Part shown: positions 1,481-32,737 of the stretch, in pieces
Numbering within the stretch: the first letter of the stretch is position 1
Layout of the letters: every line of letters starts with the position of its first letter
Virus record (IMG/VR): IMGVR_UViG_3300047157_000012
Span: 1 to 45,615 of that record
DNA: 45,615 nucleotides
Reading direction: 5' to 3' (one strand)
DNA from: a virus
Translations under genes and position numbers: made by a program
Notes under the pieces: generated by a model
The model's database searches: none
What the model was told of the DNA's origin: nothing
What the model saw: only the letters and a program-made list of their open reading frames with translations

Positions 1481-1765
1481 ATGGGTGCTGATCCTTTAAA
1501 ACTTGCTAACCCTACAAAAAAAACTCGTGCAATAGGGAAACTTTCAGCTAAAGCAAGAAAGCAAAAGAAAGATTTAGATAAAAAGAAAAAAGCTCTAGCA
1601 GAACTTAGAGAACACAAAAAACTTGGTTGGGATGGAAAAGGTTCTAAAAAACCTGACCTGCAACTAAGAGGAAATATAATGTTTCCTACAAAAGCTTCTA
1701 AGAAAAATTACCAACCTTGGAAGAGAAAACTAGATAGGTTAGAAAAGAAACTTAAAGGTTTATAA
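1481..1765 (+). CDS. Small basic coiled-coil protein
   Basis: 94 residues, very rich in Lys (KKTRAIGKL, RKQKKDLDKKKKALAELREHKK), with a helical, probably coiled-coil first half and a C-terminal KRKLDRLEKKLKGL helix. A clear AAGGAGAG ribosome binding site lies 6 bases before the ATG. It sits between the EF-hand membrane protein and the holin, and its stop shares one base with the holin start (TAATG). The charge suggests nucleic acid or membrane-surface binding, but no family is recognised. It foreshadows the run of basic proteins after the endolysin. Confidence 0.75.
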   Translation: MGADPLKLANPTKKTRAIGKLSAKARKQKKDLDKKKKALAELREHKKLGWDGKGSKKPDLQLRGNIMFPTKASKKNYQPWKRKLDRLEKKLKGL

Positions 1766-2121
1766 TGCTTGGATTAAACTTAATCGGTCAAGTAGCTAAT
1801 CTAGCTGGTACAATGATCGAAGGCAAGACAGCTGTGAAGAAGGCTGAAGCTGAAACAAAAATGAAGATAGCTACTGGAGAACTTGATTGGGATCTAGCAG
1901 CTATGAAGGCTACAGAGAACTCGTGGAAAGACGAATGGATTACTTTACTATTCTCAATACCATTGATCCTAGCCTTCTGTGGTGATTGGGGTAATCAAAT
2001 AGTACAAGCAGGATTTGCTGCTTTAGCTAATATGCCTGATTGGTATCAGTACTCACTAGGTGGAATCGTTAGTGCTAGTATTGGTATGCGTGGTGTAAGT
2101 AAATACTTCGGGAAGAAATAA
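1765..2121 (+). CDS. Holin, GTA-type three-TM family
   Basis: 118 residues. An amphipathic N-terminal part (1-50, with an alternating KKAEAETKMKIATGE helix) is followed by NSWKDEWITLLFSIPLILAF at 52-71 and a second hydrophobic stretch, YSLGGIVSASIGMRG, at 96-110. This arrangement, with the SWKDEW motif before the first main TM, matches the holin family known from gene transfer agents and marine phages. It would permeabilise the inner membrane for endolysin release. The endolysin follows with a one-base TAATG overlap, the usual holin-endolysin pair. Confidence 0.82.
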   Translation: MLGLNLIGQVANLAGTMIEGKTAVKKAEAETKMKIATGELDWDLAAMKATENSWKDEWITLLFSIPLILAFCGDWGNQIVQAGFAALANMPDWYQYSLGGIVSASIGMRGVSKYFGKK

Positions 2122-3096: not shown

Positions 3097-3518
3097 AAGC
3101 TTCTCAGAAGTCACTTAAGAAGTGGACTAAAGAAAAGTGGGGAACTAAAAGCGGTAAGCCTAGTGCTAAAACAGGAGAACGTTATCTCCCTAAAAAAGCA
3201 AGAGAAGCTTTAACCCCAGCAGAATATGCAGCTACTAGTGCAGCTAAACGTAAAGGCACAGCAGCAGGAAAACAATTTGTAAAACAACCAAAGAAAATTG
3301 CAGAAAAAACTAAGAAATTTAGAGCTTCGAAAGGCGGACTTACTATGAAAAAAGGTTATCACAAAATGCCTGATGGCACAATGATGAAGGATTCAGACAT
3401 GAAGAAAAAGTCTGGGTATATGCACGGTGGTATGGCTAAAAAGAAACCAACAGGATACAGTAAAGGTGGCTATGTAAACTGTGGCGCATCTATGAAACCA
3501 ACGCAAGGAAAAAAATAA
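3093..3518 (+). CDS. Lys/Gly-rich small protein with KGG motifs
   Basis: 141 residues, strongly basic. The N-terminal 60 residues (KKWTKEKWGTKSGKPSAKTG, then KAREALTPAEYAAT) are shared by many marine phage proteins. The C-terminal half is low-complexity, with MPDGTMMKDSDMKKKSG, MHGGMAKKKPTG and YSKGGY motifs. The YSKGG element recurs in the next protein (3518-3715), and a KKGG version ends the 11720-13558 protein. It overlaps both neighbours (ATGA before, TAATG after). Function unknown; a structural or DNA-condensing role is possible. Confidence 0.75.
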   Translation: MKASQKSLKKWTKEKWGTKSGKPSAKTGERYLPKKAREALTPAEYAATSAAKRKGTAAGKQFVKQPKKIAEKTKKFRASKGGLTMKKGYHKMPDGTMMKDSDMKKKSGYMHGGMAKKKPTGYSKGGYVNCGASMKPTQGKK

Positions 3519-3715
3519 TGGCTAAAGGTCAAGACGATATATCAAAGCTAATAAAGTTAATGTACCCAGAGATGAAAGCTACGGCTAAAGTAAAAAAAGA
3601 CATTGACACTTTAATAAAGAAAGAATTAGGTAAAACAAAACCTATAAATAAAAAAGGTTATAGTAAAGGCGGTATGCTTAAGAAAAAAGCTACAGTTAAA
3701 AAGAAAAGGAATTAA
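3518..3715 (+). CDS. Small basic protein with a C-terminal KGG tag
   Basis: 65 residues. The first half is a charged helix (DDISKLIKLMYPEMKATAKV) and the second half ends in GYSKGGMLKKKATVKKKRN. The C-terminal tail resembles the tail of the 11720-13558 protein (YYKKGGLVKKPKKK) and part of the preceding protein. It starts within the preceding stop (TAATG). No known domain. The shared tag may be a common targeting or binding signal, which is inference. Confidence 0.7.
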   Translation: MAKGQDDISKLIKLMYPEMKATAKVKKDIDTLIKKELGKTKPINKKGYSKGGMLKKKATVKKKRN

Positions 3716-3719
3716 ATAG

Positions 3720-4373
3720 ATGGCTAAGATGACTCTACGTGCTTGGATTAATGCACAACAAAAAGCCAAAGGTTTAAGTACTGCAGCTGCTAAAAAAGAT
3801 GCTGGTAAATATAAAAGTATTTCTGCAGCAAAAAAAGCTGGAAGTCTTTACTATACAGATAAAAATGGTAAGGTTATGATTGCAGCACTTGCATCAGACT
3901 TAAATAAAGCAGCTCCACCAGCTAAGAAAGTTTCAACTAAACCTAGATTACGTCCTTCAGGATTAGGTAAGAAGTCTAATGGTGAATCTAGGTACAAACC
4001 TGGTGCTATTAAAACTTCAGCTATAACTGGAGCAGGTAGAGGTGATGGTAAAGCAGAAGTTAAAAAACGTAAGGTAGACCCAGAGTCACCTAGCAATAAG
4101 TCTAAGGTTAAAAAGACATTAGCTGTCAATCCTAAAAATAAAGCTAATGCTAAGAAAAGAAGTGCTGCTAATAAAATGAAAAATAAAGCACAAGAAAATG
4201 CACTTAGTAGGTATACTTTTAAACAGTATGAAAACATGTCAGTAGCTCAACGTAGAAAGTTAGGTCTACCACCTAAGTTAAGCATTGTACAATATGCTAA
4301 GAAAGCATTGCAATCAGTATCAGATTTTAAAGGTACTAATAAAAGAAAGAAAAAAGGACCATCAGGTACTTAA
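3720..4373 (+). CDS. Lys-rich, histone-like low-complexity protein
   Basis: 217 residues. The N-terminus (TLRAWINAQQKAKGLSTAAA, then KKAGSLYYTDKNGKVMIA) looks folded. Residues about 65-175 are low-complexity Lys/Ala/Ser/Pro, recalling the tails of histone H1 or bacterial histone-like proteins. The end (SRYTFKQYENMSVAQRRKLG, then KRKKKGPSG) appears structured again. Four bases separate it from the previous stop; the next gene starts directly after its own stop. Likely a DNA-binding or virion-internal protein. Family not recognised. Confidence 0.75.
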   Translation: MAKMTLRAWINAQQKAKGLSTAAAKKDAGKYKSISAAKKAGSLYYTDKNGKVMIAALASDLNKAAPPAKKVSTKPRLRPSGLGKKSNGESRYKPGAIKTSAITGAGRGDGKAEVKKRKVDPESPSNKSKVKKTLAVNPKNKANAKKRSAANKMKNKAQENALSRYTFKQYENMSVAQRRKLGLPPKLSIVQYAKKALQSVSDFKGTNKRKKKGPSGT

Positions 4374-4736
4374 ATGGTTGAAATAGCCTATTCTACAGCT
4401 ACAGAAGCAGTAACGATAGCATCTACTACTACAGGTGCTAACGCTACTCTTGTGTATACTTGTCCACCATTTCATGATGCGACAGTGGACTTACTACACG
4501 TAGCTAATAACAATAACTCTTCTAAGAAAATTTACCTGCAGTTTTATCACCAAGATGATACTACTTATCATTACGTACTTAAGAACCATACTATAGCAGG
4601 TAACTCAGCAGAAAACATATTTGGTGCTGGGGTATTACATCTTCATGCAGGGGATAAGATTGTTGCATATGGTGAGACAACTAATACTATGGAAGTACTA
4701 ATATCTTGTAGAGAATTTTATAATCCGACACGTTAA
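4374..4736 (+). CDS. Putative virion decoration or head protein
   Basis: 120 residues, mostly predicted beta strand, not basic, unlike the five genes before it. It contains TTGANATLVYTCPPFHDATV, a YLQFYHQDDTTYHYVL stretch and LHLHAGDKIVAYGETTNTME. Proteins of this pattern occur in marine phages near structural genes and may be small beta-sandwich capsid decoration proteins. The start follows the preceding stop with no gap. Last gene of the first + strand block; a new promoter lies just downstream. Confidence 0.65.
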   Translation: MVEIAYSTATEAVTIASTTTGANATLVYTCPPFHDATVDLLHVANNNNSSKKIYLQFYHQDDTTYHYVLKNHTIAGNSAENIFGAGVLHLHAGDKIVAYGETTNTMEVLISCREFYNPTR

Positions 4737-5362: not shown

Positions 5363-5786
5363 TAAAACTTGGCAGTTACCTAAGCCAGAAAAAGCTGAAG
5401 GTGAGTTTGATTGGCTACCAGTAGTAAGAGTAGGTAGAGTTATACCATTTGGCTATAGACAAGACCCCAATGACTCTGATATACTACTACCAATCCCAGA
5501 AGAGTTAGAATTATTCGAACAAGCTAAGAAGTATCTTAAGCAATATAGCCTACGTGAAGTTTCTAATTGGCTAAGTGCTACTTCAGAACGTTATATCTCT
5601 CATGTGGGTCTTATGCAGAGGGTTAAACTTGAACAAAAACGTAAGAAAGAAGCTTCAATCCAACGCTTCTATGCAGAAAAGTACAAAAAAGCCGCAGAAA
5701 AAGCGGAAAAGCTCGAAAGACAACGTATCGGTGCAAGAGTCCCAAAAGGAACTAGCACCAGCGCAGGTGAAATCACCACCGATTGA
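5352..5786 (+). CDS. terL: Terminase large subunit, N-terminal fragment (recombinase-like domain)
   Basis: The ATG at 5352 lies within the end of terS. The visible 144 residues contain VIPFGYRQDPNDSDILLPIP, then a YSLREVSNWLSA helix-turn-helix-like part and YISHVGLMQRVKLEQKRKKE. This resembles the recombinase domain of serine recombinases and is known as an N-terminal extension of some marine phage TerL proteins. After about residue 130 the frame appears to slip: the continuation (VEKATRNIIFEPNEGPQTDF) is in the +1 frame. Removing one base from the CCCAAAA run at 5741-5747 would join them. It could instead be a separate small protein, but the coiled-coil linker runs into the other frame. Confidence 0.65.
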   Translation: MKTNKTWQLPKPEKAEGEFDWLPVVRVGRVIPFGYRQDPNDSDILLPIPEELELFEQAKKYLKQYSLREVSNWLSATSERYISHVGLMQRVKLEQKRKKEASIQRFYAEKYKKAAEKAEKLERQRIGARVPKGTSTSAGEITTD

Positions 5787-6108
5787 CGTAGAGAAAGCTA
5801 CAAGGAACATAATCTTTGAACCTAACGAAGGTCCACAGACAGATTTCCTAGCATCTACAGAACAAGAGGTACTTTATGGTGGTTCTGCTGGGGGTGGCAA
5901 GTCATATGCTATGATTGCTGACCCTGTACGCTTTCTAAACAACCCTCATGCAACTATGTTGCTAGTACGTAGAAGTACAGAGGAGTTAAGAGAGCTTATA
6001 TCTGTATCTAAACAACTATATCCCAAAGCAATACCTGGGATTAAGTTTATGGAAAGAGATAAGACTTGGATTGCACCATCAGGTGGACATTATGGATGTC
6101 ATATCTAG
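5731..6108 (+). CDS. terL: Terminase large subunit, ATPase fragment (Walker A)
   Basis: This is the second reading-frame piece of terL. FEPNEGPQTDFLASTEQEVL is followed by the Walker A motif YGGSAGGGKSYA and the LLVRRSTEELRELI stretch of the packaging ATPase. It ends at a stop (6106-6108) soon after WIAPSGG. The true continuation, TLWMSYLDRDDDV, lies in the -1 frame; adding one A after GGTGG near 6086 would restore SGGTLWMSYLDRDDDV. The GTG at 5731 is the nearest in-frame start if the piece is translated alone, but no ribosome binding site supports it. Confidence 0.7.
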   Translation: MQESQKELAPAQVKSPPIDVEKATRNIIFEPNEGPQTDFLASTEQEVLYGGSAGGGKSYAMIADPVRFLNNPHATMLLVRRSTEELRELISVSKQLYPKAIPGIKFMERDKTWIAPSGGHYGCHI

Positions 6109-6614
6109 ATAGAGATGATGATGTAATGAGATATCAAGGTCAAGCCTTTAATTGGATTGGTTTTGACGAGATGACACAGTGGCCTACACCTTATCCTTGG
6201 AACTATATGCGTTCAAGGCTACGTACAACTAAACAATCGGGTCTACCTCTCCATATGAGAGCAACATCCAACCCAGGTGGCCCAGGTCATCAATGGGTAA
6301 AGAAGACTTTCATCGACCCTGAAGTACCTAATAAGGCTTTCTGGGCTACAGATCCTGAAACAGGTGATGTTATTGAGTGGCCTAAAGGTCATAGCAAAGA
6401 AGGTGAACCATTATTCAAACGTAGGTTTATACCTGCTACTTTGTTTGATAATCCTTATTTAGCTGATGATGGTATGTACGAGGCAAACCTACTGTCGTTA
6501 CCTGAGCATCAGCGTAGGCAGTTACTTGAAGGTGATTGGGATATTAATGAAGGTGCAGCCTTCCCAGAGTTCAACAGACAGATACATGTAATTGAACCAT
6601 TTGATATTCCATAA
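6066..6614 (+). CDS. terL: Terminase large subunit, Walker B / linker fragment
   Basis: The third piece of terL, coding from about 6087. It contains YLDRDDDVMRYQGQAFNWIG, the Walker B FNWIGFDEMTQW with its catalytic acid pair, the coupling motif RATSNPGGPGHQW and the linker FDNPYLADDGMYEANLLSLP. It stops right after EPFDIP at 6614. The downstream NWPKFRACDYGYG is one frame ahead; deleting the T of CCATAAC near 6612 would give DIPNWPKFRACDYGYG. The very conserved TerL sequence on both sides of each break argues that this is one gene with single-base changes and not several genes. Confidence 0.7.
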   Translation: MDCTIRWTLWMSYLDRDDDVMRYQGQAFNWIGFDEMTQWPTPYPWNYMRSRLRTTKQSGLPLHMRATSNPGGPGHQWVKKTFIDPEVPNKAFWATDPETGDVIEWPKGHSKEGEPLFKRRFIPATLFDNPYLADDGMYEANLLSLPEHQRRQLLEGDWDINEGAAFPEFNRQIHVIEPFDIP

Positions 6615-7188
6615 CTGGCCTAAGTTTAGAGCATGTGACTATGGTTATGGTTCGTATACTGGAGTTGTTTGGATAGCAGTATCACCTGATGAACAACTGA
6701 TTGTTTATCGAGAAATGTATGTATCTAAAGTTATTGCTACTGATTTAGCAGATATGATATTAGATGTTGAACAGTTTGAAAAAATACGTTATGGTGTACT
6801 TGATAGTTCTTTGTGGCATAAACGTGGTGATACTGGACCATCTCTAGCAGAACAAATGATAATGCGTGGGTGTAGGTGGAGACCAGCAGATAGATCAAAA
6901 GGATCTCGTGTAGCAGGTAAGAACGAATTACACAGAAGACTACAAGTTGATGAGTTTACAGAAGAACCTAGACTAGTATTTTTTAACACTTGTTCTAATA
7001 CTATATCTCAATTACCTTCTATACCTTTAGATAAAAAGAATCCAGAAGATGTAGATACACATGCTGAAGATCACCTGTACGATGCATTAAGATACGGAAT
7101 AATGACAAGACCTAGAAGTAGTTTATTTGATTATGATCCTACATCTAACTCAGGTTTTCAAGCCAGCGACCCAACTTTCGGTTATTAA
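6592..7188 (+). CDS. terL: Terminase large subunit, nuclease domain fragment
   Basis: C-terminal piece of terL, coding from about 6610. It carries the RNase H-like nuclease domain: FRACDYGYGSYTGVVW with the first catalytic Asp, IRYGVLDSSLWHKRGDTG with the second acidic site, and DVDTHAEDHLYDALRYG with the C-terminal acids. The nuclease cuts concatemeric DNA during packaging. An in-frame TTG at 6592 could start it only without a visible ribosome binding site. Together the four pieces span 5352-7188, about 612 residues, a normal length for a TerL with the N-terminal extension. Confidence 0.72.
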   Translation: MNHLIFHNWPKFRACDYGYGSYTGVVWIAVSPDEQLIVYREMYVSKVIATDLADMILDVEQFEKIRYGVLDSSLWHKRGDTGPSLAEQMIMRGCRWRPADRSKGSRVAGKNELHRRLQVDEFTEEPRLVFFNTCSNTISQLPSIPLDKKNPEDVDTHAEDHLYDALRYGIMTRPRSSLFDYDPTSNSGFQASDPTFGY

Positions 7189-7197
7189 GGAAAAGCA

Positions 7198-9303
7198 ATG
7201 GAAGAAGATGAAATCTTTGAAAATGAAATGGCAATGGACTCAGTAGAGGCTAATGCTATAGAAGACATGGATGAAGATAATTATTCTGATCCACTTTCAG
7301 GAACTGTAGTTGGTTTAGTACAAGATCATTATACTAAAGCTTCCACTGCTCGTGAGAACGAAGAAAAACGTTGGGTACAAGCCTACCGTAACTATCGTGG
7401 TTTATATGGACCAGATGTCCAGTTTACTTCTACAGAAAAGTCTAGGGTGTTTGTTAAAGTTACTAAGACTAAAGTACTAGCTGCTTATGGTCAAATAGTA
7501 GATGTACTCTTTGGTAACAGTAAGTTCCCTATTACAGTTGACCCTACTACACTACCTGAAGGTGTAGCAGACTCAGTATTCTTTGAATCAAATGACGATA
7601 TGCGTAAAGCCAGAGAAGAGTTTGGCCCAGAAGAAATGCAGTTACGTCCAGGTGAAACTGTAATAGATTTGCAGGAACGTTTATCAGGTTCTAAAAGTAA
7701 GCTAGCACCTGTAATGGATCTACTTGAAGAAGGTAATGGTAGAACTGCTACTGAAATTACTATACACCCTGCTATGATCTCTGCAAAGAAAATGGAAAAG
7801 AAAATCCATGATCAATTAGAAGAGTCTAATGCAAACAAACAACTAAGAGTTGCTGCCTTTGAGTGTGCCTTATTTGGTACAGGAGTAATGAAAGGGCCCT
7901 TTGCTGTAGATAAAGAATATCCTAAATACGAAGAAGGTGAATATACACCTCTAATTAAAACAGTACCTCAAACCTCATCTGTATCTATATGGAACTTTTA
8001 TCCTGATCCAGATGCAGCTAACATGGATGAAGCAGAGTATATAATAGAACGTCATAAGATGTCACGTACTCAAATACGTGCGCTTAAACGTAGACCTTTC
8101 TTCCGTAAGAATGCTATAGATACAGCAGTAAACATGGGTGAGTCCTACACTAAAGAGTGGTGGGAACAAGCTATGGAAGATGACTCTAACGAAGCTAAAG
8201 CAGAACGTTATGAAGTTTTAGAGTTTTGGGGTAATGTAGATACAGAAGTTCTTGAAGGGCATGATGTAGATATCCCAGATGAGTTAAAAGATTTAGATCA
8301 AGTTTCAGTAAACATCTGGATTTGTAACGGTCAAGTACTACGTTTAGTAATGAATCCATTTACACCTACACTAATACCATATTATGCTGTACCTTATGAA
8401 GTAAGTCCGTATAGTTTATTTGGTATAGGTATTGCTGAAAACATGGATGATACTCAAACTCTTATGAATGGTTTTATGAGAATGGCTGTTGATAATGCGG
8501 CTTTATCTGGTAATATGATTATAGAGGTTGATGAAACTAACTTAACCCCAGGTCAAGATCTATCTGTGTATCCTGGAAAAGTCTTTAGACGACAGGGTGG
8601 AGCACCTGGACAGGCAATCTTTGGAACTAAGTTTCCAAATGTTTCTAATGAAAACATGCAGATGTTTGATAAAGCTCGTGTATTATCAGATGAATCAACA
8701 GGCTTTCCTTCTTTCGCACATGGTCAAACAGGTGTGTCAGGTGTAGGCCGTACAGCTTCTGGCATTTCAATGCTTATGTCTGCGGCTAACGGAAGTATCC
8801 GTAATGTAGTCAAGAATGTAGATGATTATTTACTTGGCCCTATGGCTAAAGCATTCTTTAACTTCAACATGCAGTTTGATTATGATGAAGAGATCAAGGG
8901 TGATCTTGATGTTAAGGCTCGTGGTACAGAAAGCTTAATGGCTAATGAAGTACGTAGCCAAAGATTAATGCAATTTTTACAGGTTGTGCAAAACCCAGTA
9001 CTAGCACCATTTGCTAAGATGGACTACATTATTCGTGAGATAGCTAAGTCTATGGAACTTGACCCTGATAAATTAGTTAATTCAATGTCAGATGCTACAA
9101 TACAAGCAGAGATGCTTAAGAAATGGCAGGAAGCTAATCCTCCTGAGCCTCAACCAGAAGCCCCAGGACAGCCTCAAGGTGGACCAGCTGGTGCACAGGC
9201 AGGAGATCCTACAGGAGCTGGTGGTGGTACTATAGGGACAGGCTCAGTGCCTACTCCAGGAGAACCTGGCTTCTCAGCTAATACTGGACAAGGTGCTGCA
9301 TGA
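7198..9303 (+). CDS. Portal protein
   Basis: 701 residues, in the range of podovirus portals. The N-terminus is acidic (1-35), followed by HYTKASTARENEEKRWVQAY and the TKTKVLAAYGQIVDVLFG helix. The middle has YPDPDAANMDEAEYIIERHK and PYEVSPYSLFGIGIAENMDD with TQTLMNGFMRMAVDNAA, typical of portals that form the dodecameric DNA entry ring. The last 60 residues are Pro/Gly/Gln-rich and disordered. AAGGA precedes the ATG by 8 bases. Placement directly after terL and before the scaffold and capsid genes fits. The stop overlaps the next start (ATGA). Confidence 0.85.
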   Translation: MEEDEIFENEMAMDSVEANAIEDMDEDNYSDPLSGTVVGLVQDHYTKASTARENEEKRWVQAYRNYRGLYGPDVQFTSTEKSRVFVKVTKTKVLAAYGQIVDVLFGNSKFPITVDPTTLPEGVADSVFFESNDDMRKAREEFGPEEMQLRPGETVIDLQERLSGSKSKLAPVMDLLEEGNGRTATEITIHPAMISAKKMEKKIHDQLEESNANKQLRVAAFECALFGTGVMKGPFAVDKEYPKYEEGEYTPLIKTVPQTSSVSIWNFYPDPDAANMDEAEYIIERHKMSRTQIRALKRRPFFRKNAIDTAVNMGESYTKEWWEQAMEDDSNEAKAERYEVLEFWGNVDTEVLEGHDVDIPDELKDLDQVSVNIWICNGQVLRLVMNPFTPTLIPYYAVPYEVSPYSLFGIGIAENMDDTQTLMNGFMRMAVDNAALSGNMIIEVDETNLTPGQDLSVYPGKVFRRQGGAPGQAIFGTKFPNVSNENMQMFDKARVLSDESTGFPSFAHGQTGVSGVGRTASGISMLMSAANGSIRNVVKNVDDYLLGPMAKAFFNFNMQFDYDEEIKGDLDVKARGTESLMANEVRSQRLMQFLQVVQNPVLAPFAKMDYIIREIAKSMELDPDKLVNSMSDATIQAEMLKKWQEANPPEPQPEAPGQPQGGPAGAQAGDPTGAGGGTIGTGSVPTPGEPGFSANTGQGAA

Positions 9304-9494: not shown

Positions 9495-11727
9495 AGCATA
9501 TGGTTATTTCAAAGGTGGGGCAGCTAGTCTCAAAGATCAAACAGAAAGTGCTTTCGGTCTTGACGATAATAAAACAGAAGTTCAAGAAGAACTAGTAGCT
9601 CCAGTTACAATTAGTGATCTTGATAGTAGACCACTAAGTTTATTAGATGCAAGAGATGATGATAGATACTTAGGTGAGTTTGATGGTGGGCATATGTTCA
9701 TAGACAGACTCGGTAAAACCTACACTATATCTGGAGAAGCTAAACCTGAAGATAATAGAACAGGTGCTGAACGTTGGAAAGAAAACCTTAAGCCTGTAGT
9801 TAGTGCAGCTAAATTATGGTGGGAAGAAGGTGCTGATTTACCAAGTATACAACAAATTTATGGTGTAGGTAAAGCAGTTGCTGAAGGGGTCTACGATACA
9901 GTATCTAAAATATCAGGTGCTGCAACAGGTAAAGTATCTGGAGACGATATAACTTTAGCTGATACATTTGATGCTACTGCTGGTATGGGTGTAGGTTCAT
10001 CCTTAGTTAAAGTACCTGAAGGTTCACTAAGAATTTTTGGTGGACTTAATGCAAAAAATGCACCTGATGTAGATAGGATTACAAATTCTTTTAATTCTGA
10101 GTTTGAAGTTTTTAAGCAAAAAGTTTTATCTAATGAAGTTGATTTAGACTTTGATATGTTACAAAAGATTAAAAAGTTAGACCCTGAAAGCCCAGAAATA
10201 CCTGAAGTAGCTTTAAAGAGTCCAGAGTATTATTTTTATAATGATACAGCACAAATAGCTCAATCAAACGCAATATCTTTAATGATAGAGCACCCAAAGT
10301 ATTTTAAGAAAACTTTAAAATCTTTAGATAACAGTGGTGAATATTTTAGAGGTAGAGATGGAATGTTAAGGTTTGAAATAGATGATTCAAAACTTAATAT
10401 AAAAAATAGAAATATAACTGTTGTAGGTGAAGACCCTAGTTATGACGTAGAAGATTTTGTATCAGAAAAATTAAGATACTATAACCTTTCTCCAGAAGAA
10501 AAAATTAAATTTGAAAATGCTAACCCTGGATATAAAATTGAAAAAACTTGGACTAGTTTAGATGAAGTTATAGAACACCCAGTTTTATTTGAACAGTATC
10601 CGAACTTAAAAAATGTAGCTGTTATAACAGATAGGGAGTTTTTTAAAAATCCTAAGTATGAAGAAGTATTGGGTTACTTTGAACCAAACTATGGTTATAT
10701 TGCTATGAACCCTAACCTAAGTGATGATGTTTGGAAATCAACAATACTTCATGAAATGCAACATGTAATACAAAGAGCAGAAAACTTTGATTCTGGTACT
10801 TCTGATGAAACTGATGCTGTAAGCGTACTGGTTAAAATAGCTTCTGAATCTGATAAAGGTAAACAGGTTTGGAGAGACTACAGAAAAGCTGCAAAACAAT
10901 ATAAAAAAGATTTAGATAAATATAACGACCTACCTATCTTAAAACGCCTTGTAACTAAAAAACCTACAGAGCCTATAGAACCTAAAAAATATTTTGATCC
11001 TTTAGGGTTTAAACCTTTAGAAGAAAAAGAACATATTATTTATGAACTTAACTCAGGTGAAGTAGAAGCACGTAATGTTACAGATAGAATGAACTTAAGT
11101 GCTAAACAAAGAAAAATTTTACTTCCTGAAAAAACCCAAGACTCACAGTACGGGGATCAATGGACAAACTTAGAAGCAAAAAAAGAAATGAAGGATGAGT
11201 ACAATCCTTCTTATTCTAAATCATTTAACTCACCTAAGTTAGAAGACTTTGGATTTAAAACAGATAACCCTGGTGGTGATTGGTTAAAAAGTAAATTAAG
11301 ATTTGCCGAAAAATCAAAAGCAGATGCTGAACCAGATACATACAGAGCAAACTTAGGTAACTCAGATGGTGTAACTGGATATTTTCAAAGACCTCTTAAC
11401 ATTAACCCAAAAGTATTTAAAGATGTAAAAGGTGCAATGGGTGAAGAAAATTTTAGACCTGACCCAACAAAGTTAAAAAACCTTAAAAAGAATATTGCTG
11501 AAGAAGGCTATGATAAATTTAGAGGTACAATTTTAATACATGTCCGTGAAGATGGAGAGCCGTTTATAGTCGAAGGCAACCATAGAATAATAGAAGCTAT
11601 TGAAAGTGACAGACCTACTATACCTGTTGAAATTAAATATTTAAGAGGTGCAGAAAAAGTACAAGGAGATTTTTCTCCAGAAGAAATTATAAAGTATGCA
11701 GATAAAAAGGTAAACGATAATGAATAG
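9484..11727 (+). CDS. Large polyvalent protein: HExxH metallopeptidase-like plus ParB-like domains
   Basis: 747 residues. The N-terminus (FKGGAASL at about 9-16, acidic linker) resembles the start of marine phage head proteins. Around residues 355-535 there is a region like the large polyvalent protein domain LPD23: VLFEQYPNLKNVAVIT, the zincin motif HEMQH at 423-427 and YELNSGEVEARNVTDRM at 520-536, whose Glu could be a third metal ligand. Residues about 650-735 look like a ParB/sulfiredoxin-fold domain with FIVEGNHRIIEAI (GNHR at 698-701). The position beside the portal is where MuF-type, virion-delivered effectors are often found. Activity and delivery are inferred; it could also be a prohead protease-like or structural protein. 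Confidence 0.7.
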   Translation: MGDKAYGYFKGGAASLKDQTESAFGLDDNKTEVQEELVAPVTISDLDSRPLSLLDARDDDRYLGEFDGGHMFIDRLGKTYTISGEAKPEDNRTGAERWKENLKPVVSAAKLWWEEGADLPSIQQIYGVGKAVAEGVYDTVSKISGAATGKVSGDDITLADTFDATAGMGVGSSLVKVPEGSLRIFGGLNAKNAPDVDRITNSFNSEFEVFKQKVLSNEVDLDFDMLQKIKKLDPESPEIPEVALKSPEYYFYNDTAQIAQSNAISLMIEHPKYFKKTLKSLDNSGEYFRGRDGMLRFEIDDSKLNIKNRNITVVGEDPSYDVEDFVSEKLRYYNLSPEEKIKFENANPGYKIEKTWTSLDEVIEHPVLFEQYPNLKNVAVITDREFFKNPKYEEVLGYFEPNYGYIAMNPNLSDDVWKSTILHEMQHVIQRAENFDSGTSDETDAVSVLVKIASESDKGKQVWRDYRKAAKQYKKDLDKYNDLPILKRLVTKKPTEPIEPKKYFDPLGFKPLEEKEHIIYELNSGEVEARNVTDRMNLSAKQRKILLPEKTQDSQYGDQWTNLEAKKEMKDEYNPSYSKSFNSPKLEDFGFKTDNPGGDWLKSKLRFAEKSKADAEPDTYRANLGNSDGVTGYFQRPLNINPKVFKDVKGAMGEENFRPDPTKLKNLKKNIAEEGYDKFRGTILIHVREDGEPFIVEGNHRIIEAIESDRPTIPVEIKYLRGAEKVQGDFSPEEIIKYADKKVNDNE

Positions 11728-26570: not shown

Positions 26571-26795
26571 ATGTCTAGTGAAGAACACTCAGTAGAGCAG
26601 ATGGAAAGCGCAGTTAGGCTAATAAGAGATCAGCTTTTAGAAACTGAAGTTGACCCTGTGCCTAGCAGATTTATTGAATGGGAAGCAAAATCTGATGAAC
26701 AGAAGACTGCATGGAAAAATTATCGCCAAGCTCTTTTGGACGTTACAAATCAAGATGGCTTCCCAGACAATGTAGTCTGGCCTACTAAACCATGA
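26571..26795 (+). CDS. Tail fibre assembly chaperone
   Basis: 74 residues. The C-terminal half, KNYRQALLDVTNQDGFPDNV with the final WPTKP, is the signature of the phage tail assembly chaperone family (WxxYRQALRDI...GFP..V.WP). These proteins usually follow fibre genes and help them fold. An AAGGATAT site lies before the ATG. The stop overlaps the next gene by 4 bases. Confidence 0.85.
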   Translation: MSSEEHSVEQMESAVRLIRDQLLETEVDPVPSRFIEWEAKSDEQKTAWKNYRQALLDVTNQDGFPDNVVWPTKP

Positions 26796-27058
26796 CTGAG
26801 AGTTGGCATCTTTCTAAGTCAGTACCAGTTACGTTAATCGTAGCTATCGTACTACAAACTATATCACTTGTATGGTATGTGTCTTCACTAGACTCATCCG
26901 TCAAAAATAATGCTCGTGATTTAGTTCGCCAAGAAACTCGTATTAATACACTAGAGAAAACAGTACAAATGCAAGCTGTCTCTCTAGGTCGTATTGACGA
27001 AAACATTAAAGCTATTCGTAACCTAGTAGAGAGAATGGCAGAACAAGATAATAAATGA
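26792..27058 (+). CDS. Membrane-anchored coiled-coil protein
   Basis: 88 residues: a single TM segment at about 11-32 (VPVTLIVAIVLQTISLVWYV) followed by a periplasmic or cytoplasmic coiled coil (ETRINTLEKTVQMQAVSLGR, NIKAIRNLVERMAEQ). The N-in, C-out layout resembles inner-membrane spanins, although no matching outer-membrane lipoprotein with a lipobox was found nearby. It overlaps both neighbours by 4 bases (ATGA), so it belongs to the exported-protein cassette. Role uncertain. Confidence 0.75.
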   Translation: MTESWHLSKSVPVTLIVAIVLQTISLVWYVSSLDSSVKNNARDLVRQETRINTLEKTVQMQAVSLGRIDENIKAIRNLVERMAEQDNK

Positions 27059-27612
27059 AACTCTTACTTATATTATTTACCCTACTAATTGGTACTGCTA
27101 CATATGCCAATGATGATGACACAATATATACTGATACAAACAGTACTATAACATCTAATGGGTCTATGGATACTACAATCAATAGCCCACCACCATCGGC
27201 TATATCTCCACAGATAAGTGCAAGTAACTCTGACTTATGTACTGTAGGTGTAGCAGGGGCGGTACAGACACAGATACTAGGTATCTCAGCAGGTCGTACA
27301 GTACGTGACATGAACTGTGAGAAGCTCAAGAATGCTAAGACTATGTATGACATGGGCATGAAGGTAGCCGCAGTATCAGTAATGTGTCAAGACGAAAGAG
27401 TGTTCGATGCTATGATGAATGCAGGTACACCATGCCCTAAAGATGGATTAGTTGGTGATCAAGCTAGACTAGCATGGGATATGGAAGCAGTTAAAGATGA
27501 GATCGAACGAGATCAAAACGATGTAATCAGAAAGATGTTTGATGAGAACAGTGAAACTAAGATTGGCTTGGGTGTTATCTTTAGTACTCTTGCCTTCTTA
27601 CTCCTACTCTGA
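27055..27612 (+). CDS. Exported protein with C-terminal membrane anchor
   Basis: 185 residues. A signal peptide is clear (residues 1-18, ending TATYA). The mature part has TDTNSTITSNGSMDTTINSP, PPPSAISPQISASNSDLCTV, GVAGAVQTQILGISAGRTVR and KVAAVSVMCQDERVFDAMMN with several Cys, and ends in a hydrophobic segment (IGLGVIFSTLAFLLLL, 170-185) that may act as a tail anchor. The pattern is shared with other marine phages, without known function. Its last 71 bases also encode the signal peptide of the next gene in another frame. Confidence 0.8.
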   Translation: MKLLLILFTLLIGTATYANDDDTIYTDTNSTITSNGSMDTTINSPPPSAISPQISASNSDLCTVGVAGAVQTQILGISAGRTVRDMNCEKLKNAKTMYDMGMKVAAVSVMCQDERVFDAMMNAGTPCPKDGLVGDQARLAWDMEAVKDEIERDQNDVIRKMFDENSETKIGLGVIFSTLAFLLLL

Positions 27613-28411
27613 ACCATATACGTATGGAGCTACAAGTAATGCGGCATCAGGTGCATTAGGTTGGTCTATGGACTCTATCTTACCTAGTATCGCTGGTGTA
27701 GATATAAATGGATTACTATATAGATACACTACAGTAAAAGACCCAGATGCAGACATGAAGGTACATGTAGGTAATCACAACGCAAGTGGAGATGGTTATA
27801 CATTTAGAGAGACTGATGACTGGTCTGGCGTACCCGGAAATACTATTGTTAAGTCTTTCCCTCTTTCAAATATACCAGCATCTAAATGGGGTACTGGGTT
27901 TGTTGAAGTTGAGGGTGAAGGAACTGTTAAAGATGCTGTTGTAATATACAACTACAGGTTAGACAAATGCTATGATCCACAGTCTGACCCATCTTGTGCA
28001 GGTTATGTAAAGCCTATGCCTGAGATACCAGAGGTTATAGTCTATGATGCACTAGAAGATGATGCAGTTGTAGATACACTAGAAGCTGAAGAGTTTCAGT
28101 ATGACGAAGATGGTAAACTTATACTAGATGAAGAAGAGGAAGAAGAAGAGACACGCATAGAGATGGGATTGACTGCCTCTGCTAATGCTCTTACACTATT
28201 CAAGGCACAGAATCAAAGCGATATAATATTAGCCTTAAACAAACAAACTAATATCAATATGTATTACAATGCAAAGATAAACGGCGGTACACTAAACGAT
28301 GCAGCTGGATTAAAAGATGGAACTATACCCGACAACAAGAAAGCTTTACGAAACAATTTAGCCCAACAAGTACTACATGAAAAAATGGTAGACATGCAGT
28401 ATAACAAATGA
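27542..28411 (+). CDS. Exported protein of unknown function
   Basis: 289 residues from the ATG at 27542. An in-frame TTG lies directly before it. A signal peptide spans about residues 1-23 (MRTVKLRLAWVLSLVLLPSY, cleavage near SYS-EP). The mature protein contains LGWSMDSILPSIAGVDINGL, VHVGNHNASGDGYTFRETDD, two Cys near DKCYDPQSDPSCAG and a strongly acidic run of Glu at about 200-206. The helical C-terminus ends QQVLHEKMVDMQYNK. The first 71 bases overlap the previous gene in a different frame. Not recognised as an enzyme; part of a set of co-transcribed exported proteins. Confidence 0.78.
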   Translation: MRTVKLRLAWVLSLVLLPSYSYSEPYTYGATSNAASGALGWSMDSILPSIAGVDINGLLYRYTTVKDPDADMKVHVGNHNASGDGYTFRETDDWSGVPGNTIVKSFPLSNIPASKWGTGFVEVEGEGTVKDAVVIYNYRLDKCYDPQSDPSCAGYVKPMPEIPEVIVYDALEDDAVVDTLEAEEFQYDEDGKLILDEEEEEEETRIEMGLTASANALTLFKAQNQSDIILALNKQTNINMYYNAKINGGTLNDAAGLKDGTIPDNKKALRNNLAQQVLHEKMVDMQYNK

Positions 28412-28419
28412 GGAATACA

Positions 28420-28908
28420 ATGAAATATTTAACAGCACTACTATCACTTTGTGCATTACCAGCATTTGCTACTGTAGATATTACAGGAAGCGTAGCCGCC
28501 AAGTGTGTTATTCAAGCAGATAAAGCTGGTGTATACGGCAACCCTATTGCCAGTAAGTTAAGCACAACACCTTCAGATGGTGGTGTACTACCTGTAATTA
28601 GGTTTGATGTATCTATTGCAGACTCATACACTGCAAACATAACTCACCCTACATCCTTTAGCTCTTCACCTAACCTTACAGATACACTTGCATGGACAGG
28701 AAGTACAAGTGTAACTAAAACTTCTGTGTCAGGAATGTCAGCTTATAATGATGCAAAAGTTGTAGTAGATAGTACCACTATCTTTAACCTAACTCTTGCA
28801 GGTTCAACATGGTTCTCTACTGCATCAAGTGCAATCTACGGTTCAGCTAAACCTTTGCCGGGAGGTACATACACTGCAGTTGTACAGGCTACCTGTATTG
28901 CTAAATAA
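28420..28908 (+). CDS. Exported pilin-like beta protein
   Basis: 162 residues from ATG 28420, which has a GAGG site 6 bases upstream. An ATG at 28408 would add four residues. Signal peptide MKYLTALLSLCALPAFA. The mature part starts TVDITGSVAAKCVIQADKAG and ends LPGGTYTAVVQATCIAK. The paired Cys near both ends and the beta-strand pattern resemble spore-coat-U/CsuA-type fimbrial subunits, but similarity is only by pattern. Possibly a secreted or virion-attached adhesin subunit. The next gene overlaps its end by 11 bases in another frame. Confidence 0.72.
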   Translation: MKYLTALLSLCALPAFATVDITGSVAAKCVIQADKAGVYGNPIASKLSTTPSDGGVLPVIRFDVSIADSYTANITHPTSFSSSPNLTDTLAWTGSTSVTKTSVSGMSAYNDAKVVVDSTTIFNLTLAGSTWFSTASSAIYGSAKPLPGGTYTAVVQATCIAK

Positions 28909-29284
28909 ACTAATCATAGCGTTTATGGGTTGGGCTACTGTTGTTTCTGCACATGAAATGACACCAGCCTACCCAATGTTAAAGCCTACGTATGTTGCAG
29001 GTGTAGTTAAAGCAGAGATGTCTTTGTTTAACTCACGAGAAGATGTAGAGTATTATCAGATAGATTTGTTTGATTTAAACTTTACAAACCTACCATTCTC
29101 ATCTAAGTATAGGATCATTAAAGTAGGTTATAAAGAACGTAAAGATTTTATTGTGTATATACGTGAGTTAGATTTAGATGAAGCTACATATATTTGTACT
29201 ACATCAAAGGTAAGAAAAAAGACAGACTCAAGAACTTTGGTTGTCTCTAGGATATGCTCACGTATTGATGGTGAGCCAGCATGA
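28898..29284 (+). CDS. Exported conserved protein, chaperone-like beta domain
   Basis: 128 residues from TTG 28898. This start gives a clean signal peptide (MLNKLIIAFMGWATVVSA, then HEMTP); no ATG does so well. The mature part, TPAYPMLKPTYVAGVVKAEM, LFNSREDVEYYQIDLFDLNF, DFIVYIRELDLDEATYICTT, is conserved in many marine phages. The beta-sandwich pattern recalls the N-terminal domain of periplasmic pilus chaperones, and the upstream neighbour is pilin-like, but this is a weak structural guess. It overlaps the next gene by 4 bases. Confidence 0.68.
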   Translation: MLNKLIIAFMGWATVVSAHEMTPAYPMLKPTYVAGVVKAEMSLFNSREDVEYYQIDLFDLNFTNLPFSSKYRIIKVGYKERKDFIVYIRELDLDEATYICTTSKVRKKTDSRTLVVSRICSRIDGEPA

Positions 29285-29697
29285 GATTAGCATTGGCATT
29301 ATGTGTCGTAGCTAGTTCAGCAGTAGCTGAGAGTAACAACCTAGCTCTAACACTACCTAACCCACCAATGAACTATCAGTCAGATAGATTTAGGGCAGGT
29401 AACCTAGACTGTAGTAATGCTGTAGGTGGTGGTGTAAACTTAGAGTTTGGTGTTACAGGTGTAGTCAACAATGTAGGTGGTACATTTAATCCATCAAGTT
29501 TTGGACACCAAAGTAAGGATGTAGGATTATATGCCCGTGTTGTTATACCTCTTGATAAACCTAAGTCTCGTATTAATTGTGACGACTTGTATCAGGTAGA
29601 GTTAGCTCAACGTAGACTAGAGATACAACAACTACGTAATGAGCTAGAAGCATTAAAGAACCTGCAACAGACAGGTGGTATGGACTTTGAGAACTAA
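29281..29697 (+). CDS. Exported protein with C-terminal coiled coil
   Basis: 138 residues. Signal peptide MRLALALCVVASSAVA. The mature part has LTLPNPPMNYQSDRFRAGNL, two Cys (CSNAVGGG and INCDDLYQ), a Gly/Val-rich beta stretch (LEFGVTGVVNNVGGTFN) and a C-terminal coiled coil (ELAQRRLEIQQLRNELEALK). It sits between the chaperone-like protein and a membrane coiled-coil protein, overlapping them by 4 and 1 bases. Its coiled coil could bind that of its downstream neighbour. Function unknown. Confidence 0.75.
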   Translation: MRLALALCVVASSAVAESNNLALTLPNPPMNYQSDRFRAGNLDCSNAVGGGVNLEFGVTGVVNNVGGTFNPSSFGHQSKDVGLYARVVIPLDKPKSRINCDDLYQVELAQRRLEIQQLRNELEALKNLQQTGGMDFEN

Positions 29698-30197
29698 TGG
29701 TAGATTTAACAAACGTTGAAAGCCTTGCTGACAAAGAAGTAAAAGCTGGTGGTGTAAAACTAACAGCAAGTTCAGTACTAGCTATAATAGCTTTCTTGTC
29801 TACAGTAGTTGGTGGTTTGTATGGTGGCTTTACTCTATACCAAAAGATAGAAGAAGTTGCAGGGTTAGACTTAGGTGCATATCAGCAACAGATGGATGTA
29901 ATGGATGCTAAGGTATCAGGTATATCTGAGAAGGTTGAAGAAAGTGTAGAGTACACTAGAGATATTAAGAATGGTCTGAAAGATGATCTGTTAAGAATAG
30001 AACAACAGACTGATAGAGTAGAAGACATGGTACGTGACAACGAAGACAAGGTACGTAAGATGATTGATGATGCTGAGGTACGATTCGAGAACCAAAGAGA
30101 ACGTGTAAGAGTATCACAGACATCTTCCATGAAAGAACTAGAAGATAGACTCAATGCTAAACTACAAAGAGCACTAGACAACCCTTTAGCCGACTGA
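29697..30197 (+). CDS. Inner-membrane coiled-coil protein
   Basis: 166 residues. A short N-terminal region precedes one TM segment at about 22-47 (LTASSVLAIIAFLSTVVGGL). Then comes a long coiled coil (about 60-160: MDAKVSGISEKVEESVEYTR, LLRIEQQTDRVEDMVRDNED). Topology would place the coiled coil in the periplasm. It starts in the preceding stop (TAATG) and ends the exported-protein cassette. It may be an anchor for the exported proteins or a spanin-like factor. No enzyme motif. Confidence 0.75.
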   Translation: MVDLTNVESLADKEVKAGGVKLTASSVLAIIAFLSTVVGGLYGGFTLYQKIEEVAGLDLGAYQQQMDVMDAKVSGISEKVEESVEYTRDIKNGLKDDLLRIEQQTDRVEDMVRDNEDKVRKMIDDAEVRFENQRERVRVSQTSSMKELEDRLNAKLQRALDNPLAD

Positions 30198-30238: not shown

Positions 30239-30655
30239 ATGCAAATAGATAATAATAAAGCTCTAGCAGATGGTTTAGAATTATTTAGACAAAGTAAATG
30301 GCATAAGGTTTATAATGTAGAAGACATCTACAGATATCTAATAGCTCCTATTAAACATAACCGTATTCGTATATACTATCAAAACAACAAGCCTATAGGT
30401 TTAATAACATGGTGTTGGTTGGATAAAGAAGCAGGTAAAGATTTTCTTAATGACGAATATTATATTACAGAAGAAGATTACGTAGAAGATAGTAAACAAG
30501 AGCTTTGGGGTATAGAGTTTATAGCACCCTATGGTAATACAAGACAGATTATGTCTATGTTACGTAAAGAATATCACAACACCTATACAAGAAAAGAAAA
30601 GATAAACTGGCGTAGACTGCACGATTCAGCCACCAGACATACTAAGAAAGTTTAA
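30239..30655 (+). CDS. HlyC-like toxin-activating lysine acyltransferase homologue
   Basis: 138 residues; HlyC itself is about 170. Three blocks line up with the HlyC family. SKWHKVYNVEDIYRYLIAPI places His 22 where HlyC has its catalytic His 23. KPIGLITWCWLDKEAG matches the PVAYCSWANLS strand. ELWGIEFIAPYGN matches WFIDWIAPFG, with Glu 93 at the place of the catalytic Asp 92. Cellular members transfer a fatty acyl group from acyl carrier protein to lysines of RTX toxins. No RTX toxin is present here, so the substrate could be a virion or host protein. The Asp-to-Glu change may alter activity. It has its own promoter and precedes the ejection proteins. Confidence 0.75.
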   Translation: MQIDNNKALADGLELFRQSKWHKVYNVEDIYRYLIAPIKHNRIRIYYQNNKPIGLITWCWLDKEAGKDFLNDEYYITEEDYVEDSKQELWGIEFIAPYGNTRQIMSMLRKEYHNTYTRKEKINWRRLHDSATRHTKKV

Positions 30656-30658
30656 ATT

Positions 30659-32737
30659 ATGAGCAGACATCTTTACAATCCTTTTATGCCAAGTATTCAC
30701 TTCAGAGATCAAGCTGTCTTTGGTGGTGGAGGCAGTGATGGGGGTCAAGTTGCACCAGAATTACCTAAATTTACCTCATCTAAACCAGAACTAGAAGGTC
30801 AAGTTTATGAATCAGAAGCAGCAATGAAAGCTGCTGAAGCTGTGGTAGATAAAGATGCAGCTGCTATTGTGGAATATTCTAAAGCTATTAATGCTGCAGT
30901 GTCTAATGTTACTGGTGAAAACTTAGATACTATAGCTAAGACTGGATTACAAATACAAGCGGTAAATGCTGTACCAAAACCTGGTGTAACTTATGGTTCA
31001 GAAAAAATATCTGCAGCTTTAAATGCTAAATTAGCTATACTAAATAAAACCATGCAAGATGCCCAAAGTGGTGGTGTTGCTGATCTTGCCACTGGTGTAC
31101 GTGACTTAGCAGCACAAGCTGTAACTGACCCAGGTTCATTAGCTAAGTCACCCGATGTTGCTACTGTAGATACTAACCTTTCAGGTAGTACTATAGCTGA
31201 AGGTACAGGTTCACTTACCAGTCCAGGTGCAATGTATGTTCCAGATACTGTTGAAACTACTAATATAGCTGCAGGAGCTGACCCAGTTACTGCATCTACT
31301 ATGACTGCTACAACAGCTGCAGACGCAGTTAAAGCTACTACTGACGCTACTGAAGCAGCTAAAGGTACTGTATCTGCTGAAGGTGTAGTACAAGCTGCTA
31401 CGAAAGATCCTACAACCACTGACGTATCAACTATAACTGCGGCTCAAGGTACAGCTACAGTGATGGATAATCCAGTACAAAGAGAAATACAACAAGGTGA
31501 ATTAATATCAGGTGTAGCTGATGCAGCTAAAGCATCTGCATTTAGTGAACAGATACAAGCGGCTACTGCTACACCATCTACACAAGCTACTGTTAAAGGT
31601 CAGCTTGATAATCTTATGCAAGACTTTGAGGGTGGAGCTACACCTACATGGGCGGCTGGAGCAATGCGTAATGCTAATGCTCAGATGGCGGCTAGAGGTT
31701 TAGGTGCTTCATCAATGGCTGGTCAGGCTATTATACAAGCAGCAATGGAATCAGCATTACCTATAGCTATGCAGGATGCACAAACTGTTGCAGGTTTTGA
31801 AATGCAAAACTTGTCGAATAGACAACAACGTGCTATGCTTGCCGCACAACAACGTGCTACATTTATAGGACAAGAATTTGATCAAGCTTTCCAAGCTCGT
31901 GTTGCTAACTCAGCTAAGATATCTGATATAGCTAACATGAACTTTACAGCTGAACAATCTATTGCGCTTGAGAACTCACGTAATGCTAATACGATTAACC
32001 TTAGTAATTTAAATAATAATCAAGCTATGGTGATGGCTCAAGCAGCATCTGTTGCTAATTTAGAACAACAAAATTTATCTAATCAACAACAAGCTGCAGT
32101 ACAAAATGCAAAGGCCTTCTTAGATATGGATATGGCCAACTTAAACAATCAACAACAGACAGAAATGTTTAAGTCTCAACAAATAATACAGTCTTTGTTT
32201 ACTGATCAAGCCGCAGAAAATGCAGCTAAACAATTTAATGCTTCGTCTGAAACTCAAACTAAACAGTTTATGGCTAATCTCCAGTTACAAACTCAACAGT
32301 TTAATGCTACACAACTTAATACAACAGAACAGTTTAATGCTGGTAGCACCAATGCAGCTATGCAGTTTAATGCTCAAGTAGAAAATCAACGTCAACAATT
32401 TAATGCACAGAATGCATTAGTTATTGCCCAAGCAAATGCTCAGTGGAGACAGAACGTAGCTACATTTAATACACAGGCACAGAACCAAGCTAATATGCAA
32501 CAAGCTCAAGCAGCTAATGCATTTACTCAAGGTACTCTTGATCAGATATGGCAACGTGAACGTGACCTTATGGACTATGCATATAAAGGTTCTGAAGCTT
32601 CTAAGGATCGTGTATTAGATATTATATTAGCTGATAAGAAATATGAAGAATATGATAAGGCCAGAGAAGATGCTGAAAAAACAGATATGTGGTCAGTTCT
32701 AATTGGAGCTGCTGGTAGCTTCATGCAAAATACATAG
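30659..32737 (+). CDS. Virion-internal protein with hendecad coiled coil
   Basis: 692 residues, Ala/Gln/Asn/Thr-rich and almost wholly helical. Residues 325-360 include the WAAGAMRNANAQMAARGLGA segment that is common in marine phage internal proteins. From residue 525 to about 612 there are eight consecutive 11-residue repeats beginning QFNA or close variants, a hendecad pattern that favours right-handed coiled coils or membrane-associated helical bundles. No signal peptide. Position at the head of the ejection gene set suggests an internal virion protein released with the DNA, perhaps helping to form a channel. This function is inferred. Confidence 0.7.
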   Translation: MSRHLYNPFMPSIHFRDQAVFGGGGSDGGQVAPELPKFTSSKPELEGQVYESEAAMKAAEAVVDKDAAAIVEYSKAINAAVSNVTGENLDTIAKTGLQIQAVNAVPKPGVTYGSEKISAALNAKLAILNKTMQDAQSGGVADLATGVRDLAAQAVTDPGSLAKSPDVATVDTNLSGSTIAEGTGSLTSPGAMYVPDTVETTNIAAGADPVTASTMTATTAADAVKATTDATEAAKGTVSAEGVVQAATKDPTTTDVSTITAAQGTATVMDNPVQREIQQGELISGVADAAKASAFSEQIQAATATPSTQATVKGQLDNLMQDFEGGATPTWAAGAMRNANAQMAARGLGASSMAGQAIIQAAMESALPIAMQDAQTVAGFEMQNLSNRQQRAMLAAQQRATFIGQEFDQAFQARVANSAKISDIANMNFTAEQSIALENSRNANTINLSNLNNNQAMVMAQAASVANLEQQNLSNQQQAAVQNAKAFLDMDMANLNNQQQTEMFKSQQIIQSLFTDQAAENAAKQFNASSETQTKQFMANLQLQTQQFNATQLNTTEQFNAGSTNAAMQFNAQVENQRQQFNAQNALVIAQANAQWRQNVATFNTQAQNQANMQQAQAANAFTQGTLDQIWQRERDLMDYAYKGSEASKDRVLDIILADKKYEEYDKAREDAEKTDMWSVLIGAAGSFMQNT

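Follow-up and report, generated by a model that had tools for sequence, protein, structure and literature searches.

What might a lytic phage do with a run of proteins that are predicted to leave the host cytoplasm? The question is raised by the 45,615-base IMG/VR record IMGVR_UViG_3300047157_000012, analysed here at its full length and referred to as the window. The portal and coat proteins encoded there resemble those of phages, and one structural gene has its match in phages of the HMO-2011 type (SAR116 and Roseobacter hosts); the window is a lytic marine phage of this type. A homologue of one of the proteins discussed below (P; 74% identity) lies on a contig within a Rhodobacteraceae genome bin, and the host of the window phage is therefore likely alphaproteobacterial. 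Like pelagiphages, phages of the HMO-2011 type are common in the sea, and for most late genes of both groups no function is known. Seven genes of the window, all in the same direction, occupy positions 26792-30197 (Table 1). The initial annotation, which had placed this cassette correctly, proposed that it encodes an envelope-modifying machine serving superinfection exclusion, lysis control or a surface fibre.

Table 1. Cassette genes of the window and further features discussed, with positions in the window or in the locus named.
Sequence	Feature	Positions	Strand	Description
Window	H	26792..27058	+	88 aa; N-terminal membrane helix and coiled coil
Window	A	27055..27612	+	Signal peptide, low-complexity stalk, domain with 4 invariant Cys, C-terminal hydrophobic anchor
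Window	B	27542..28411	+	Signal peptide, beta-rich N-terminal part, acidic stretch, C-terminal VDMQY; first 71 bases overlap the end of A in another frame
Window	P	28420..28908	+	Signal peptide, pilin-like beta sandwich (model), N-terminal strand outside the fold, 2 Cys
Window	C	28898..29284	+	Signal peptide, one Ig-like domain (model), mature start HEMTPAYP, 2 Cys, TTG start
Window	E	29281..29697	+	Signal peptide, proline-rich start, two amphipathic strands between 2 Cys, C-terminal coiled coil
Window	D	29697..30197	+	N-terminal membrane helix, ~120 aa coiled coil, C-terminal NPLAD; i-spanin-like topology (predicted)
Window	HlyC-like acyltransferase	30239-30655		Toxin-activating lysine acyltransferase, Pfam E 5.6e-21
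Window	Repetitive protein	30659-32737		Ejection gene according to the initial annotation
L154 (CRP-207)	Small lipoprotein	1731-1940		Unannotated, directly 5' of A
L154 (CRP-207)	gp73	3292-3873		GenBank "lysozyme"; membrane helix and coiled coil, NPL end
L154 (CRP-207)	EF-hand protein	3870-4226		Cluster 0
L155 (CRP-810)	Small lipoprotein	5558-5818		Unannotated, directly 5' of A
L155 (CRP-810)	gp51	7162-7584		GenBank "lysozyme"; membrane helix and coiled coil, NPL end
L145	EF-hand protein	10918-11238		Cluster 0, with membrane helix
L158	Vibrio phage small lipoprotein	4242-4445		CTxNxxIDTDYA...
L159	Vibrio phage small lipoprotein	4242-4427		
L167	Vibrio phage small lipoprotein	6071-6256		
L170	Vibrio phage small lipoprotein	6104-6307		
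L168	Vibrio phage small lipoprotein	4116-4295		

Sec signal peptides were identified by a rule of our own, distinct from SignalP, that requires a positive n-region, a hydrophobic h-region and an A-x-A-type cleavage site. The rule accepts five of the 48 called genes of the window, and these are A, B, P, C and E, the very genes that had been picked out by inspection; they are contiguous, and the probability that five randomly drawn genes form one run is 44/C(48,5) = 2.6e-5. The two flanking proteins, H and D, each combine a single membrane helix at the N-terminus with a coiled coil, as had been described. Loss of the signal peptides in homologues, which the initial annotation had held up as grounds for abandoning its proposal, was not what we found: among distinct homologues the rule accepts 63 of 77 for A, 86 of 86 for B, 83 of 84 for P, 76 of 76 for C and 74 of 76 for E. 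The mature proteins contain even numbers of conserved cysteines (four in A, two in each of B, P, C and E) with hardly any exceptions among distinct homologues. Such numbers fit the expectation for an oxidizing periplasm, and periplasmic disulphides may be inferred from them. The cassette genes are under purifying selection (median dN/dS 0.06-0.13). We regard it as practically certain that they form an exported, conserved cassette, export through Sec being predicted.

Searches of IMG/VR with P and E returned about 150 loci, which are mutually related and hence do not count as independent samples. Wherever a locus was long enough the order A-B-P-C-E-D was invariant, and the flanks were often unlike those of the window; the cassette is missing from most HMO-2011 relatives. 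A gene built like H (clusters 3 and 9, position U1) precedes A in most relatives, and H itself has weak PHROG matches to holins and Rz-like spanins. Gene spacing is near-constant in the relatives (H/A -4, A/B -71, B/P +7 or +8, P/C -11, C/E -4, E/D -1), such that the initial description of genes joined throughout by short overlaps is accurate for most junctions, the exceptions being the gap of 8 bases between B and P and the long A/B overlap. The latter measures 65-71 bases in 116 of 116 loci checked; in the window the codons of A's C-terminal anchor also encode, in a different frame, the signal peptide of B (27542-27612). This anchor is missing from most pelagiphage and CRP homologues of A, HTVC115P being one that has it. 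The start codon of C is TTG or GTG in all 147 loci and ATG in none, and the other cassette genes almost always start with ATG; in the window the next in-frame ATG of C would leave only ~10 residues ahead of the cleavage site. The non-ATG start of C, among neighbours that use ATG, is perhaps a means of setting a low chaperone level. Behind D most relatives have a protein with an EF-hand and a membrane helix (cluster 0; 79 genes, 75 of them directly downstream), which is also present in CRP-207 and was not seen directly after D in the window.

Sequence comparison gave no function for the exported proteins. For these five, no functionally characterized family was found in Pfam, PHROGs or PADLOC, and PDB profile searches returned no sequence match; explanations of the cassette by a sequence family were rejected on these grounds. 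PADLOC, which covers known anti-phage defence, had nothing to offer beyond matches of D to ZorA that are of the coiled-coil type and one marginal match of H. Structure models were more informative. P was modelled with AlphaFold2 using the window protein and 31 phage sequences, and the best of five models (pLDDT 86; range 86 to 56) leaves the residues before 29, behind the signal peptide, outside the fold. When this model was compared with the PDB by Foldseek, CfaB was the top match, and Caf1, the pilin domain of PapG, CS17, FimF and FimG were among the best 11; for P, comparison with a viral fold library was uninformative. The AlphaFold2 model of C (pLDDT 83.8) matched Ig folds in the PDB. Here, Caf1M, SfaE, FimC and FaeE made up about half of the best 20 matches; the top match was a potassium channel domain, and an MSP domain and many antibodies were also matched. 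TM-scores for both proteins were about 0.4-0.56, which places the likeness at the level of fold. At that level the initial designations are borne out, with P resembling pilins and C, within the Ig fold, resembling the chaperones of chaperone-usher systems. The reading gains weight from the fact that overlapping neighbour genes independently resemble both partners of one system. Judging from the models, P and C are likely to be a pilin/chaperone-like pair, and the structural reading as a whole is moderately supported.

Alternatively, P and C could be unrelated Ig-like secreted proteins without any partnership, for instance two subunits of a periplasmic inhibitor. Ig folds are common, the fold similarity is moderate and no sequence family match accompanies it. 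However, two independent models selected both halves of one known system for genes that are adjacent and overlapping, and homologues of P and C occur together in Vibrio phages (179 records each). We therefore consider it unlikely that the two are unconnected.

A chaperone-pilin pair need not imply a pilus of the conventional kind. The usher family (PF00577) was found in none of 14 records, with a positive E. coli control; the record of the window is possibly incomplete. The fold matches of C to chaperone-usher chaperones span a single domain, and C, at 128 aa including its signal peptide, has one Ig-like domain where a PapD-like chaperone has two. A conventional chaperone-usher operon was rejected for want of an usher in the 14 records, and a conventional chaperone-usher pilus is thus unlikely. 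E is the best sequence-conserved member of the cassette across phage families. Its strands and coiled coil listed in Table 1, recognized by inspection and from the hydrophobic moment, would be compatible with an oligomeric anchor in the outer membrane, although this is a guess.

The cassette appears to be a combination of two modules, A-B-D and P-C-E, each of which occurs without the other. In cultured pelagiphages and roseophages A is found without P, C and E, with B-like and D-like genes directly or nearly directly after it: HTVC033P gp46-44, HTVC202P gp24-26, HTVC023P gp45-48, Baldr, the myovirus Mosig gp202-200, HTVC115P gp54-49, CRP-207 gp75-73 and CRP-810 gp53-51. Across these phages the A family is clear by sequence, and the B-like genes are supported chiefly by position. 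For D, comparison with the CRP proteins gave support (83%, E 8.7e-6); comparison with the pelagiphage D-like proteins gave no sequence support, and what they have in common is topology and a C-terminal NPL. CRP-207 gp73 and CRP-810 gp51 are of this D-like build, and their lysozyme annotation is probably wrong. Conversely, P-C-E is found without A-B-D in the Vibrio phages Thalassa (gp150-152), pVp-1 (77-79), K468a (61-63), vB_VhaS-tm and 1.205.O, in the last of which C is present but unannotated. Profile comparison of the marine with the Vibrio families gave E 1.5e-9 for P and 8.8e-15 for the E protein, and for C a weak full-length alignment (12.9%, E 2.2e-3). In the Vibrio phages a small lipoprotein (CTxNxxIDTDYA...; Table 1) overlaps the end of E or replaces E, and its alternating hydrophobic start could serve P as a donor strand. 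Further homologues of E were found in three phages, namely a T4-like Vibrio/Shewanella phage, an Erwinia Henunavirus and one jumbo phage of Klebsiella, next to two small Cys-containing proteins with signal-like N-termini; for these neighbours, which take the positions of P and C, profile comparison did not establish homology to P. A bacterial origin was sought in 84,980 species genomes; apart from a chance match within a Lentisphaeria protein, the sole occurrence of P was on a contig in a Rhodobacteraceae bin. It is possible, though we put this forward tentatively, that lytic phages of unrelated kinds have in common an exported module of pilin, chaperone and anchor, with which they build donor-strand fibres, usher-free, on the infected cell's outer membrane; this would be a phage-encoded system for making filaments.

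The genomic neighbourhood suggests another role. Close to D, among the 87 loci with enough downstream sequence, lies a holin-like gene in 67 and an endolysin-like gene in 68 (Pfam GTA_holin_3TM, Glyco_hydro_19 and Glyco_hydro_108; of the two holin-like clusters, one is without a Pfam name), and their position right downstream of the cassette in most alphaproteobacterial-phage loci favours a role in lysis. In such a scheme D would act like an i-spanin, A, B and E would touch the wall and the outer membrane, and polymers of P would help to open the outer membrane, the whole replacing Rz/Rz1. The hydrophobic stretch of D at 24-46, followed by its coiled coil, agrees with the predicted topology of an inner-membrane i-spanin. 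There is, moreover, no credible lipobox gene, and hence no candidate for an outer-membrane o-spanin, in the window or near 111 cassette loci, and the Rz family was found in none of 14 records with a working E. coli control. Of 677 phages surveyed, 91 were without a recognizable spanin (PMC6139136). CRP phages also have, directly ahead of A, an unannotated small lipoprotein whose mature part resembles the Cys domain of A. Against these points, 48 of 99 loci with the same holin/GH108 families have no match to A, B, P, C, E or D, a count in which some loci are short and absence is not always proof; in these cassette-free loci no lipobox gene was found and most have no convincing exported gene. 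Lipobox ORFs were found in neither group of lysis loci, with no sign that the cassette displaces Rz/Rz1, and the cassette appears accessory to those lysis genes and dispensable to them. Furthermore, the E homologues of the T4-like, Henunavirus and Klebsiella jumbo phages lie in regions without recognizable lysis genes, and in HTVC202P and Baldr A-B-D is located ahead of the terminase. Lysis control thus retains the synteny with holin and endolysin, but related lysis modules do without the cassette, and we rate lysis machinery as an unlikely explanation, if the chief competitor of the one that we prefer.

A tail fibre gene and the gene for its assembly chaperone precede the cassette in the window, and in all four Vibrio phage contexts examined the gene ahead of P is tail-fibre-like (phrog_10818). 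Least probable, and improbable in its own right, is that P (with E) joins the virion, or forms a fibre that virions acquire at release, as an adhesion or host-range appendage: these tail-fibre neighbours and the pilin-like fold of P speak for it, but signal peptides direct proteins away from cytoplasmic virion assembly, and A-B-D occurs in phages of differing tail types, including the myovirus Mosig (a literature search for virion proteomics of a cassette homologue found none). On the other side of the cassette, the window encodes a HlyC-like acyltransferase beside the repetitive protein, and HTVC115P gp46 and gp47 form the same pair, homologous at E 4.6e-8 and 1.3e-27 in a two-sequence search. 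The acyltransferase possibly modifies the ejection protein.

The reading we prefer is that the cassette is an usher-less chaperone-pilin module, an accessory that acts on the envelope of the infected cell and most likely serves receptor masking or superinfection exclusion; we assign it a probability of roughly 0.42. According to this model, the five soluble parts would exit the cytoplasm by the predicted Sec route and then form disulphides between their conserved cysteines. P would be the pilin-like subunit and C a one-domain periplasmic chaperone that keeps P soluble, with E as their partner at the outer membrane, where it would anchor the assembly or nucleate it, and with A, B and D as periplasmic and inner-membrane parts tying the assembly to the rest of the envelope. 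The fold of P and its free N-terminal strand suggest that donor-strand complementation probably serves to polymerize or to cap it, with no usher involved. Assembly on the outer envelope would block the receptor or the surface, thereby excluding further phages and keeping progeny off debris. That the cassette is an envelope-directed accessory module is rather probable, and export and conservation agree with the envelope-modifying machine originally proposed. Masking or exclusion is our tentative first choice, somewhat short of an even chance, ahead of lysis and further ahead of a virion-linked fibre. It is ranked first because of the tail-fibre neighbourhood and because receptor masking is known for exported phage proteins whose genes adjoin receptor-binding genes, the well-studied example being T5 Llp, a superinfection exclusion protein encoded beside the receptor-binding gene of the phage (PMC9586334).

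In the literature searched, which covered few subscription journals, we found no description of a phage-encoded pilin/chaperone module. Should P and C prove to be a genuine pilin and its chaperone, pilin assembly with the aid of a chaperone would have moved into lytic phages and would run there without an usher, which bears on the need for an usher at all. Laboratory hosts support the growth of Vibrio phages that have the P-C-E core (Thalassa, pVp-1), which makes the function of these three small genes directly testable.

The cassette shares features with three known systems. D resembles one half of the Rz/Rz1 two-component spanins in its single N-terminal TM helix and long periplasmic coiled coil, and most relatives share the lysis-gene neighbourhood; unlike a spanin pair, the window has no o-spanin lipoprotein or Rz family match and encodes several additional exported proteins. 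The exclusion lipoproteins Llp of T5 and Cor of T1/phi80 are likewise small exported phage proteins encoded beside receptor-binding or tail-fibre genes (PMC9586334), whereas the cassette comprises several proteins, none of them in the window a small outer-membrane lipoprotein, and no sequence relation is known. In the chaperone-usher pili (CFA/I with CfaB, F1 with Caf1/Caf1M, type 1 with Fim), as in the cassette, genes for a pilin-like protein and an Ig-like chaperone stand side by side, both with signal peptides, and the N-terminal strand of P lies outside the fold in the model; the cassette differs in that it has no usher, a one-domain chaperone of ~110 residues and no Pfam match, and in being carried by lytic phages. 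Thus, as far as sequences and models can tell, the cassette would work in a manner like that of a chaperone and its pilin, yet we do not class it with the chaperone-usher systems, since neither an usher (in 14 records) nor a two-domain chaperone was found, nor do we class it with the spanins.
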